A stretch of DNA of 64,000 bases from NCBI RefSeq assembly GCF_024972735.1, contig NZ_CP087723.1:2542001-2606000 (forward strand). The letters run 5' to 3'. The DNA comes from Halalkaliarchaeum sp. AArc-CO (lineage in GTDB: Archaea; Halobacteriota; Halobacteria; Halobacteriales; Haloferacaceae). The notes below the pieces were generated by a model. The model did no database searches. It was not told the origin of the DNA and was given only the letters and a program-made list of their open reading frames with translations. Each line of letters opens with the position of its first letter. Position 1 is the stretch's first letter. This document shows, one piece after another, positions 6,264 to 33,818 of the stretch. A program made the position numbers and the translations under genes.

Positions 6264-6374
6264 TCCGGTGCGGGGGACTCGATCGGGGGCTTTTAAGTTG
6301 CGATGGTTGCGGGGTCGTGTATTGCAGGTGGGTGGTTCGGGAAGGGTATCCACCCATGGGATACGTGAAATAAT

Positions 6375-6404
6375 GGCCTTGTTGAACCCCTCAACCGCTG
6401 ACAG
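6375..6404 (+). repeat. Left inverted end of the vapBC cassette
   Basis: Begins GGCCTTGTTGAACCCCT and ends CTGACAG. Aligns gap-free with the reverse complement of 7240-7269 at 22 of 30 positions. Confidence 0.6.
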
Positions 6405-6452
6405 GTTACAGCAGTCCTGGTGAACACGACCGAAAATAGCCCCATAAGACTC

Positions 6453-6458
6453 TTTATC
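6453..6458 (+). promoter_or_regulatory. TATA box of vapBC
   Basis: TTTATC lies 22-27 nt before the vapB ATG in an AT-rich stretch (6445-6479), which fits a leaderless haloarchaeal promoter. It lies inside the cassette, so the module would carry its own promoter when moved. Confidence 0.55.
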
Positions 6459-6479
6459 CCATATATCCCAATATATCTC

Positions 6480-6728
6480 ATGGTCAAAACTATTCGAGTC
6501 TCAGAGGAGTACCACGAGTGGCTCAGCGCCCACAAGGAGGGCGACGAGACGATGGAGGAGACGCTCCGCCGGATGACGCGTGGCCCTCATCCGAGCGACG
6601 TTGCCGGCCTCCTGACCGAACAAGAAGCCGATAACGCCAAGGAAGCGGTGAACCGTCTGCGCAGGGGTGACCGCGATCGGCTTGATGCCGCCCGCAGCGC
6701 CTTCGAAAGCGAGGACGCGGGGGAATGA
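6480..6728 (+). CDS. vapB: VapB-type antitoxin, 82 aa
   Basis: A short acidic protein beginning MVKTIRVSEEYHEWLSAHK, a beta strand plus helix arrangement like ribbon-helix-helix/VapB antitoxins of haloarchaea, followed by TMEETLRRM, and a charged C-terminal part that would wrap the toxin. The ATG at 6480 is chosen over an in-frame alternative at 6420 because the TATA box lies just before it. The stop overlaps the vapC start by 4 bases (ATGA). Expected to neutralise VapC and repress the shared promoter. Confidence 0.75.
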   Translation: MVKTIRVSEEYHEWLSAHKEGDETMEETLRRMTRGPHPSDVAGLLTEQEADNAKEAVNRLRRGDRDRLDAARSAFESEDAGE

Positions 6729-7120
6729 TTATCGATTCCTCGTATCTCTTCGACCTGATGGCTGAGGACCCGGACGCGTTCTCGAAGGGCACGGAACTCG
6801 TCGAGAACGGCGAGATGCAGTGGTTACCGACTCCGGTGGTCGCTGAGGCCTACTACGGCGTCGCCACGGCTCGCAGTAACACCACGGAACAGGAGGTACG
6901 CAATCGCATCCTCGGGTACCCCCGCATCGATGTTGACGAAGAGATCGCGCGGAAAGCCGGTGAACTACTCGCGGCGGCAGATGACCGTGTGGGAGGGAAC
7001 GCCGGCGTCGGGGCGAACGACGGGTACATCGCCGCAATGGCCGATGTCCTTGACGACGCGGTCCTAACGGACAATGTCGAAGACTTCGAGGCTCTCGGTG
7101 CGACTGTCGAAACCTATTGA
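6725..7120 (+). CDS. vapC: VapC-type PIN-domain ribonuclease toxin, 131 aa
   Basis: The PIN-domain acidic residues are all in place: D4 in MIIDSSYL, E41 in VAEAYYG, D99 in GANDGYIAA and D116 in LTDNVEDF, so the nuclease is probably active. Length is normal for VapC. It overlaps vapB by ATGA, the usual coupling of the pair. VapC toxins cleave tRNA or rRNA; the target here cannot be told. The pair sits within inverted repeats without a transposase (6375-7269). Confidence 0.85.
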   Translation: MIIDSSYLFDLMAEDPDAFSKGTELVENGEMQWLPTPVVAEAYYGVATARSNTTEQEVRNRILGYPRIDVDEEIARKAGELLAAADDRVGGNAGVGANDGYIAAMADVLDDAVLTDNVEDFEALGATVETY

Positions 7121-7202
7121 ATCCCACACGTACAAAAACAGGATTCACCTCGCTTTTTCGACGACTTCGGGCGACAACCTGGTCAGATGTATTGGAGTTA
7201 GA

Positions 7203-7233
7203 CCTGCTGACTACAGTCTCTATATTCAGCAGG
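7203..7233 (+). terminator. Hairpin after vapC
   Basis: An 8-bp perfect inverted repeat, CCTGCTGA (7203-7210) with TCAGCAGG (7226-7233), 83 bp past the vapC stop and just inside the right cassette end. It may end the vapBC transcript or be a subterminal transposase site. Confidence 0.35.
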
Positions 7234-7239
7234 CCGGTT

Positions 7240-7269
7240 CTGTCAGTTGCGTAGGGTTTCAACAGCGCC
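7240..7269 (-). repeat. Right inverted end of the vapBC cassette
   Basis: Reverse complement starts GGCGCTGTTGAAACCCT and ends CTGACAG, pairing with 6375-6404. The flanking GAAATGAT at 7270-7277 is the putative target copy. Confidence 0.6.
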
Positions 7270-7310
7270 GAAATGATGTAATCCCCATGGGGGAACTCGG
7301 TCGACAACGG

Positions 7311-31200: not shown

Positions 31201-32037
31201 TTATCGGCTATTGGCGGCGTGTCCGTAGACGAACTCTCGCAACAGTTTCCCGGCCAGCGCCGCCGCCTGGCCGTCGTCGCGATCGTTCACCTCGACGACG
31301 TCGAATCCGTCGGACCGGGGCGCCACCGCTCGGACCGCGTCCCGCATCTCGCGGGGCGTCAGGCCGAACGGCTCCATCGTTCCCGTCCCCGGCGCGTATC
31401 CGGGATCCGCGCCGTCGATGTCCACCGAGAGGTAGACGGAGTCGACCTCCGCGAGTTCGTGTTCCCCCGCGTCCATCGCCGTGATCCACTGCCGGGTCTC
31501 TTCGGGAGACACGACGGTCACGTCGTCCGCCTCGGCGCGATCCCACTCCTCGGGAGAGCCGGTTCTCGCGCCGACGACGACGAGCCGGTCGGCGTGCCCC
31601 TCCTCGAGCGCCCGGCGACAGACGCAGGCGTGGCTCCACTCGTCGCCGGCGTACGCGTCACGGAGATCCAGGTGAGCGTCGAGGACGACGAGAACGTCCG
31701 GCTCGACGGCGGCGACGCCCGCGTACGTAACCGTATGCTCCCCGCCCACAACGAGCGGCACCGCGTCCTCCCAGACGACGTCCCGCAGGGTCCCCTCGAG
31801 GAACTCGAGGTAGTCGGGGACGTCAGACCACGCGTGGACATCGCCGGCGTCGTGCACCGAGAGATCAGTGAAAAACTGGTCCGTCCGCCGGTCGTAGTCG
31901 TCGTACGTCTCCGCAAAGCGGCGGATCCGGTCGGGACCGAAGCGGGTCCCGGGCTGAAAGGTCGTCGTCGCGTCCAGGGGCGCACCGACGATCGCGTACT
32001 CCGCCGCCTCGCGGTCGGCCGACGCGCCGGGGAACAT
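31201..32037 (-). CDS. speB: Agmatinase / arginase-family ureohydrolase, 278 aa
   Basis: All manganese ligands of the family are visible: H101 in GGEHTV, D120, H122 and D124 in VLDAHLDLRDAY, D206 and D208 in SVDIDGADPGYAPGTGT. The reaction would be agmatine to putrescine and urea. Its start overlaps the eIF5A stop by one base, so the two are cotranscribed. In Haloferax volcanii the equivalent neighbour was reported to be needed for the deoxyhypusine pathway, so a role in eIF5A modification is the best guess. Confidence 0.85.
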   Translation of the reverse strand: MFPGASADREAAEYAIVGAPLDATTTFQPGTRFGPDRIRRFAETYDDYDRRTDQFFTDLSVHDAGDVHAWSDVPDYLEFLEGTLRDVVWEDAVPLVVGGEHTVTYAGVAAVEPDVLVVLDAHLDLRDAYAGDEWSHACVCRRALEEGHADRLVVVGARTGSPEEWDRAEADDVTVVSPEETRQWITAMDAGEHELAEVDSVYLSVDIDGADPGYAPGTGTMEPFGLTPREMRDAVRAVAPRSDGFDVVEVNDRDDGQAAALAGKLLREFVYGHAANSR

Positions 32038-32414
32038 TATCCGACGATCTTCCGCTGGTCCTCGTACTCGAGGTACTCGATGGTGTCGTCCGAGGAGAAC
32101 GATTCGTCCTCGGGTATCCGCATGGTGAACGTCTCGTAGGTGTCCAGGTCCATCACCTGGGCGTCGTCGCCAGTCACCGAGACGACCTGCCCCTGCTTCC
32201 GCTCGATGATCGGCACCCACACCTTCGCGTCGACCGGCTGGGAGAACGATCGCTTCTTGCCATCGAAGACGCCACGTCCCTCGACTCTGGCCTTCGCACT
32301 GCCGTGTTTTCCGGGCTTTGCGGTGCTGTAGGCGTTGATCTTGCAGGGTGTGTCGTCCATCATCACGTAGCTGCCTTCCTGGAGATCGCGAACCTGCTTT
32401 TGCTCTTTCGGCAT
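32037..32414 (-). CDS. eif5a: Translation factor aIF5A, 125 aa
   Basis: Two-domain aIF5A with the hypusination loop KPGKHGSAK; the modified residue would be K36. The OB-fold half follows with [21 protein letters not shown]. Start at ATG 32414 fits the family ([18 protein letters not shown]). It helps translation of hard peptide sequences. Operon with agmatinase immediately downstream. Confidence 0.93.
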
Positions 32415-32499
32415 ACACCGTCGTTTTGCCGGCGGTAGTATAAACGGTTTGATCGTCGACGTGCGGGCCCCTCCGTCGACTTTCGGCACTGTTCGTCGC

Positions 32500-32736
32500 C
32501 TACAGTTCGGGTTCGTACTCCTCGTCGTCGCCTTCGGGGAGCAGATTTCCTGTCCGGAGATAGCTCGTCGCCATCAGCGCCAGGAATCCGGCAGCGATCG
32601 CGACGATCGTCCGGCCGGGAAACTCCAGACCGACGGCGTTACCCGCGAGGTTCACGACGATCAACGTGACCGCACCCGCCCCGAGCGCGATCGACTCCTC
32701 CGAAAGGTCGTCGAATCGGTCCGGGAAGAGGCTCAT
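32500..32736 (-). CDS. Small membrane protein, 78 aa
   Basis: Two membrane-spanning segments ([17 protein letters not shown] and [17 protein letters not shown]) with an acidic C-terminal tail ([11 protein letters not shown]). It overlaps the end of the upstream aminotransferase gene by 4 bases (ATGA), so it is probably in the same transcript. Function unknown. Confidence 0.6.
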
Positions 32737-33818
32737 TGGGGCTCCCCGCGGTTCACGATCGCCTTCGAGACGTGCGAGAGTCCACGCTCCAGTTCGGAGG
32801 TGGGAAGCCCGAACCCGATCCGGAAGTAGTCGTCGTGACCGAACAGCTCCCCGGGGGCGAGCACGACGCCCTCCTGTTCGACGACGGTTCGACAGAAGTC
32901 GGTGCTCGACTCGAACCCGTCCGGGACGGTGACGAAGCCGTTGACCCCGACCGGATCGTACCAGGAGAGACCGTGGCGATCGATCCAGTCGGCGACGATC
33001 TCCCGGTTTTCGGCGGCGAGTTCGCGGTTCTCCGACAGGATCTCCGCCTCCCGTCGACCCAGCGCCTGTTTTGCGACGTGCTGGCCGAACAGCGACGGCG
33101 AGATGGTGGTGTAGTCCTTCCAGTTCCAGGCGGCGTCGATCACCGATCGATCGCCGACGAGCCAGCCGAACCGCAGACCCGCCAGCCCGTACGCCTTCGT
33201 GAGGCTCGTCGTCGACAGGCCGTACTCGCCCATGCTCGCAGCCGGGGGCAGCGGGTCCTCGGCGAGCAGCCGATACACTTCATCACACAGCAGGTACGCG
33301 TCGTGTGCGGCGGCAACGTCGTACAGTTGCTGGATGATCTCCTCGCCGTGATACCGTCCCGTCGGGTTGTTCGGGTTGTTCACGACGACGACCGCGGTGT
33401 CGTCGGTGATCGCCTCCCGGACCGCGTCGACGTCGAGTGCCCACCGCGGTGGCTCGAGTGGGACCGTCGTTACCGAACCGAACGCCTCCGGAACCGAGTA
33501 CAGCGCCTGGTAGGTCGGCGTCACCACGACAGCGTGGTCGCCGCCGTCGCCCCCCAGAAGCGAGAGGAACGCTAGAACGTTCGCCTCCTGGGTCCCGCAG
33601 GTGAAAAGGACCTCCTCGGCCGATCGATCGTAGCGTTCCCCCACCCGGGCACGGAGCTCCGGATCGCCGTTCGTGGGGATCACATAGCCCAACTCGCCCG
33701 GATCGAGATCGAACCGGGAGGCGGAAAGCGACCGGATCCCGCTTTCGGCGAGCATGATCTCGGCGTCGTGTTCGTACTCCGCGAACCAGCGTTCGAGGCC
33801 GAACGGGGCAATGTCCAT
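32733..33818 (-). CDS. Class I/II PLP-dependent aminotransferase, 361 aa
   Basis: Fold type I aminotransferase with NNPNNPTGRY, the CDEVYRLLA segment (D179) and Schiff-base Lys K208 in TTSLTKAYGLAGLRFGW. Somewhat shorter than AspB-type proteins. The substrate is not identifiable; aspartate or aromatic amino acids are possible. Overlaps the small membrane protein by 4 bases. Confidence 0.8.
   Translation of the reverse strand: MDIAPFGLERWFAEYEHDAEIMLAESGIRSLSASRFDLDPGELGYVIPTNGDPELRARVGERYDRSAEEVLFTCGTQEANVLAFLSLLGGDGGDHAVVVTPTYQALYSVPEAFGSVTTVPLEPPRWALDVDAVREAITDDTAVVVVNNPNNPTGRYHGEEIIQQLYDVAAAHDAYLLCDEVYRLLAEDPLPPAASMGEYGLSTTSLTKAYGLAGLRFGWLVGDRSVIDAAWNWKDYTTISPSLFGQHVAKQALGRREAEILSENRELAAENREIVADWIDRHGLSWYDPVGVNGFVTVPDGFESSTDFCRTVVEQEGVVLAPGELFGHDDYFRIGFGLPTSELERGLSHVSKAIVNRGEPQ

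Follow-up and report, generated by a model that had tools for sequence, protein, structure and literature searches.

Transposase-less elements that carry a passenger gene are known as mobile insertion cassettes (MICs), the type being MIC231 of Bacillus cereus (PMC6542083, PMC3129680), and an insertion sequence (IS) with a passenger gene is termed a transporter IS (tIS; PMC3129680, describing ISsaga, and PMC7986276, an IS6 review). In Haloquadratum, the ISH2-type HqIRS32 (~520 bp) holds a non-transposase ORF and is the only coding one among five MITE families (PMC3119063), and type II toxin-antitoxin pairs, PIN pairs included, have been described as passengers of Tn3-family transposons (PMC7157771).

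Here, we analysed a 64-kb stretch of haloarchaeal DNA (64,000 nucleotides, hereafter the window) and found a vapBC unit that is very probably a non-autonomous transposon, namely a MIC that has IS5-type L and R ends and carries a complete vapBC operon together with its promoter. Like the MICs described, it has IS-type ends, a passenger and no transposase, and movement in trans is expected of it; the haloarchaeal family to which it belongs is distinguished by archaeal, IS5-type ends in asymmetric fixed pairs, with a different gene in nearly every one of 81 elements. Eighteen transposase-bearing members of this family are of the tIS kind, from which the window element differs in lacking a transposase and in having R where they have a T end. 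HqIRS32 is likewise a transposase-less haloarchaeal element with inverted ends and one ORF, but its cargo is not vapBC, a separation drawn from its published description. Tn3-family elements also carry toxin-antitoxin pairs, PIN among them, but encode a transposase and a resolvase, whereas the window unit is archaeal, has no transposase and carries the pair and nothing else. We found no account of a haloarchaeal family of cassettes with IS5-type ends in the literature searched, ISfinder and TnCentral lying outside that search.

The unit spans 895 bp (6375-7269), and its outer 30 bp pair at 22/30 as an inverted repeat (Table 1). It contains only vapB and vapC, a two-gene operon joined by an ATGA overlap, and no transposase gene. 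Both tips match GGCYYTGTTGAAAYCCT at 16/17 positions. The left end shares ~74-87% identity with the ends of other elements and was classified as L, and the right end, at ~73-86% identity over up to ~65 bp, as R; scored against the census consensus described below, they reach 50 (L) and 58 (R), making an L-R pair. A subterminal hairpin of -12.8 kcal/mol lies at the right end. Reading and measurement thereby confirm the structure given in the original prediction, that of a transposase-less segment with inverted ends, near-identical 8-bp flanks, vapB, vapC and a hairpin. The imperfect duplication and repeats indicate that the window copy is old.

Table 1. Coordinates of the features of the vapBC unit in the window and of three other elements with exact target duplications
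Feature	Location	Strand	Remark
Left target duplication GAAATAAT	6367..6374	.	Pairs 7/8 with 7270-7277
L-type cassette end, tip GGCCTTGTTGAA	6375..6432	+	First 30 bp form the inverted repeat
Upstream/promoter segment, A+T-rich, candidate TATA and operator	6433..6479	+	Promoter role inferred from sequence
vapB antitoxin, 82 aa	6480..6728	+	VAPB_antitox E 1.7e-4, below Pfam cut-off
vapC PIN-domain toxin, 131 aa	6725..7120	+	PIN E 2.4e-8, above cut-off
Spacer between vapC and right end	7121..7203	.	Matches neither free vapBC loci nor ends
R-type cassette end, tip GGCGCTGTTGAA	7204..7269	-	Subterminal hairpin ~7203-7233
Right target duplication GAAATGAT	7270..7277	.	Read and measured
Element with exact duplication GAAAATCC	L062 2938-4154		
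Element with exact duplication AAGAACTC	L065 2419-3119		
Element with exact duplication GCTTTCAC	L072 3013-3475		

VapC matches PF01850 and holds the acidic residues of the PIN RNase set (D4, E41, D99 and D116, assigned by eye); its upstream partner matches the antitoxin family weakly, and a PDB sequence search with VapC returned nothing at E 0.01. Pairwise dN/dS values, which take both branches together and not the cassette branch alone, were 0.06-0.19 for VapB against relatives and, where computable, 0.06-0.11 for VapC; both are free of stops and differ from the free copies mainly at synonymous sites. A second stretch related to the vapB region of the unit, at 72% identity, lies elsewhere in the same genome (C2:1113566-1113713).

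A search of 197 relatives with the whole unit returned two separate sets of matches. One covers the operon only (query ~67-758, window 6433-7124), at 66-90% DNA identity where most of the operon is covered and with the same operon layout; the other covers the ends only (query ~1-66 and ~830-911) and comes from many other genomes. When 392 genomes of the order were searched, the strong vapBC relatives all began at query position 67 or later and stopped by 758; about 30 relatives of the window vapBC are without the ends, and no second vapBC cassette was found. The vapBC homology begins at 6433, ~59 bp inside the left end, and includes the promoter segment, which is common to the vapBC loci L033-L035, themselves without cassette ends. 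Cassette tips were found beside free vapBC at 0 of 34 fetched loci, and none at the plasmid locus L438, in flanks of mostly ~1.5 kb. Ends and cargo thus have separate histories, vapBC having been packaged between the ends, once only in the data searched. Other haloarchaea do carry vapBC without the ends (L033-L046, L438), which supports the cassette reading. Because no second copy of a vapBC cassette was found, the case for movement of the window unit rests on its duplication and on its family. In a separate observation, the vapBC homologue of genome G029 is split inside vapC by ~357 bp (L044 1144-1500), and the family tips are absent there.

Other copies of the ends, which the original prediction had proposed to look for in haloarchaeal genomes, were found around dozens of other cargos, and in the fetched loci end pairs bound unrelated genes with exact 8-bp duplications (Table 1). 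A rule-based scan of the loci fetched by then, requiring two convergent tips close to GGCYYTGTTGAAAYCCT, gave 130 pairs, 59 of which had 8-bp flanks matching at 7/8 or 8/8 (50 of the 59 exactly); twelve shifted registers gave 0 or 1 flank match, and other widths were only near chance. With loci added later, the census comprises 81 distinct elements, all with 8-bp duplications, several at 7/8 like the window copy: 63 are transposase-less (124-4402 bp, median 684) and 18 transposase-bearing (1266-3325 bp), proportions that hold for this sample and are not population estimates, as the loci were fetched non-randomly by similarity to the window ends, one motif, transposase similarity or neighbouring tips. 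Almost no cargo, as called by simple ORF rules, is shared between elements. We also observed MITEs of 124-125 bp that have the family tips and perfect 8-bp duplications but differ in their interiors (L429 109-233, L430 114-237, L431 112-235, L432 115-238 and L433 3516-3640); as candidates for fused L and R ends they were rejected, for their tips agree and their interiors do not.

Of 197 haloarchaeal genomes, 141 contain the 17-base tip motif, one of them with as many as 32 occurrences, and the reversed pattern had no match in any genome listed. A longer pattern matched at least 119 stretches among 84,980 species genomes, and the 80 titles among the matches listed were haloarchaeal, the exceptions being a single MAG labelled Thermoplasmata and records of uncultured archaea. 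Viral contigs gave 65 matches with one clear element, L325 on an IMG/VR contig, and the named haloarchaeal plasmids L435-L437 held single tips only.

When the ends were classed by the 75 bp inside each tip, transposase-less elements fell into L-R pairs (n=28, the window included), H1-H2 pairs (n=21) and exceptions or unclassified pairs (n=14), and transposase-bearing elements into H2-T1 (n=6), L-T2 (n=4), L-T1 (n=3) and partly unclassified pairs (n=5), the T end adjoining the transposase. The window unit, being an L-R pair without a transposase, is consistent with the family rule for transposase-less elements (L-R or H1-H2), a rule that has exceptions. The 18 transposase-bearing elements encode homologues of one transposase group, and the two of these enzymes that were tested belong to the IS5 family by NCBIfam NF033579 (210 and 216 bits against a curated cut-off of 140), one also matching DDE_Tnp_1 in Pfam. 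One end, L or H2, is common to transposase-less and transposase-bearing elements, and this sharing is our chief reason for supposing that both kinds are moved by the IS5 enzyme.

Two elements, L079 and L080, share 98% identity and a phosphate-transporter gene (PHO4, tested in L079) but lie at unrelated sites within different perfect duplications (GATCTGGC and TATGGGTC), and L080 is without 414 bp of the transposase. Compared with each other, they show recent transposition of this type of element and a first step of transposase loss, although the deletion in L080 may have followed insertion. No recent transposase-less cassette was seen at two sites. The empty site that had been anticipated in a related strain was recovered in part: in the congener G001 the two flanking genes are adjacent at the orthologous place, with no insert, but a base-exact empty site was not found there, the intergenic DNA having diverged. 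For another cassette, L195, a search for its empty site in 52 genomes of the genus recovered the left flank and cargo homologues without ends, and the right flank was not contiguous among the matches listed.

Three other explanations of the window unit were weighed. That its ends derive from the IS6 family, with vapBC in place of the transposase, was the reading of the original prediction, and IS6 elements do make 8-bp duplications, measure ~800 bp and have tips with GG and cTGTt (PMC7986276). We consider this origin scarcely credible and rejected IS6 as the source: haloarchaeal IS6 (PF13610) loci for which both ends and the duplication could be resolved have the tips GGCACTGTCTAGTTAAG or GGYRGTGTTCAGATAAG, and PF13610 (DDE_Tnp_IS240) has 0 matches in the home genome and none in the element. 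The transposase-bearing elements bounded by GGCYYTGTTGAAAYCCT-type tips instead encode the IS5-family enzymes, so that the ends are IS5-type and not IS6-type; the agreement in length with an ordinary IS6 element is a coincidence, given that family members span 124 to 4402 bp. What stands of the original interpretation is thus a transposase-less mobile cassette carrying vapBC, with IS5-type ends replacing IS6 ones.

It is also very unlikely that a chromosomal vapBC came to lie by chance between two IS scars, or within a decayed IS, and was never mobile as a unit. The repeats pair at only 22/30, the flanks at 7/8, and the copy is single, all of which such a history would accommodate. Yet of the 37.9 million ways to place 30-bp arms in the 64-kb window (span 600-1199 bp), 70 reached a 22/30 arm match and the vapBC unit alone combined it with 8-bp flanks of at least 7/8, where ~0.03 would be expected by chance (70 x 3.8e-4). 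The L-R pair fits the family rule, the vapBC homology starts just inside the L end, and the congener is without the unit, each of which speaks against coincidence. An improbable alternative is that vapBC began as passenger in an IS5 element with its own transposase, that the transposase half was lost after insertion, and that the unit never moved in trans. Each of the 18 transposase-bearing members is longer than its transposase by at least 400 bp, several with a clear passenger ORF, and a transposase deletion is seen in L080; but transposase-bearing elements have a T-type end, whereas the R end of the window unit is that of transposase-less cassettes, and nothing recognisable as a transposase remnant was found in 7121-7269. 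A mobile cassette with its own L-R pair of IS5-type ends therefore remains our preferred reading.

As a transposon of this kind, the unit would offer its asymmetric ends, L (~58 bp) and R (~66 bp), with inverted tips close to GGCYYTGTTGAAAYCCT, as substrates to an IS5-family DDE transposase of the 'ALPKSR/ALPKSQ' type that a related element provides in trans, either in a former host or from a passing plasmid. Once bound to the ends, the enzyme would transpose the unit and create the 8-bp target duplication. VapC is predicted to be a PIN RNase that VapB neutralises, a toxin-antitoxin activity that would favour retention of the cassette.

At present, the window copy has probably lost its mobility. 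DDE_Tnp_1 occurs at 13 places in the home genome, and no close cognate of the IS5 transposase was found there, the nearest being 40-43% identical (best 43%). As home-genome helpers these enzymes were rejected: where two sets of ends could be resolved, the tips were GGCTCTGTAGTTTCG or GGCTCTATTGAATCG, not cognate by sequence. With no close helper, worn repeats and a congener without the unit, the vapBC unit is probably immobile unless a helper enters. Apart from the unit itself, the genome has a single good tip, at 33103-33119 of contig C1 next to an HNH-endonuclease ORF; remnants of L- and R-type inner sequence lie nearby, and C1 ~31780-33119 (L391 ~178-1517) is probably a second, decayed cassette, whose cargo resembles that of L325. 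Within the window, we also observed an IS630-like transposase with winged-helix domains and DDE_3, split over two ORFs (440-1509), and a 196-aa ORF with a weak Fic/DOC match (2015-2605; E 3.9e-4, just below cut-off).

Forty proteins from the elements, all but one of them cargo candidates, were scanned against protein families. They include Usp, glyoxalase, luciferase-like monooxygenase, two alpha/beta hydrolases, PHO4, a Na/H exchanger (two adjacent ORFs), a sodium/bile-acid symporter, three HalOD1 proteins, AsnC-type and TrmB-type regulators, an archaeal pilin and an HNH endonuclease, and many candidates are without a family. Defence models matched in two elements, L186 (PDC-S31) and L325 (ZorE-like HNH); in L186 (805-2129), ~50 residues of the 281-aa cargo match PDC-S31, a PADLOC candidate defence family. 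In L062, a 331-aa protein shows, by eye only, the HEPN-type motif R-N-P-I-A-H. The cassette L231 (1470-2817) pairs a TrmB/DUF7437 regulator with a 175-aa ORF that is PIN-like by eye and has no family match, possibly a second toxin-antitoxin cassette.

Taken more broadly, it is possible, and only a little short of probable, that a gene-cassette system is widespread in haloarchaea, two fixed IS5-type end pairs repeatedly capturing single host genes, among them stress proteins, transporters, hydrolases, regulators, nucleases and toxin-antitoxin pairs, and spreading them as units that lack a transposase. Such a system would be somewhat like integron cassettes but would work by DDE transposition, and the vapBC unit would be one capture. 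Small cassettes with recognisable ends would provide a concrete vehicle for single-gene exchange among haloarchaea, as well as a route to annotation. The vapBC unit, with an addiction pair as its sole cargo, makes the stabilisation of a non-autonomous element testable, and the end-pair rule makes the question of the helper directly testable in Haloferax or Halorubrum.
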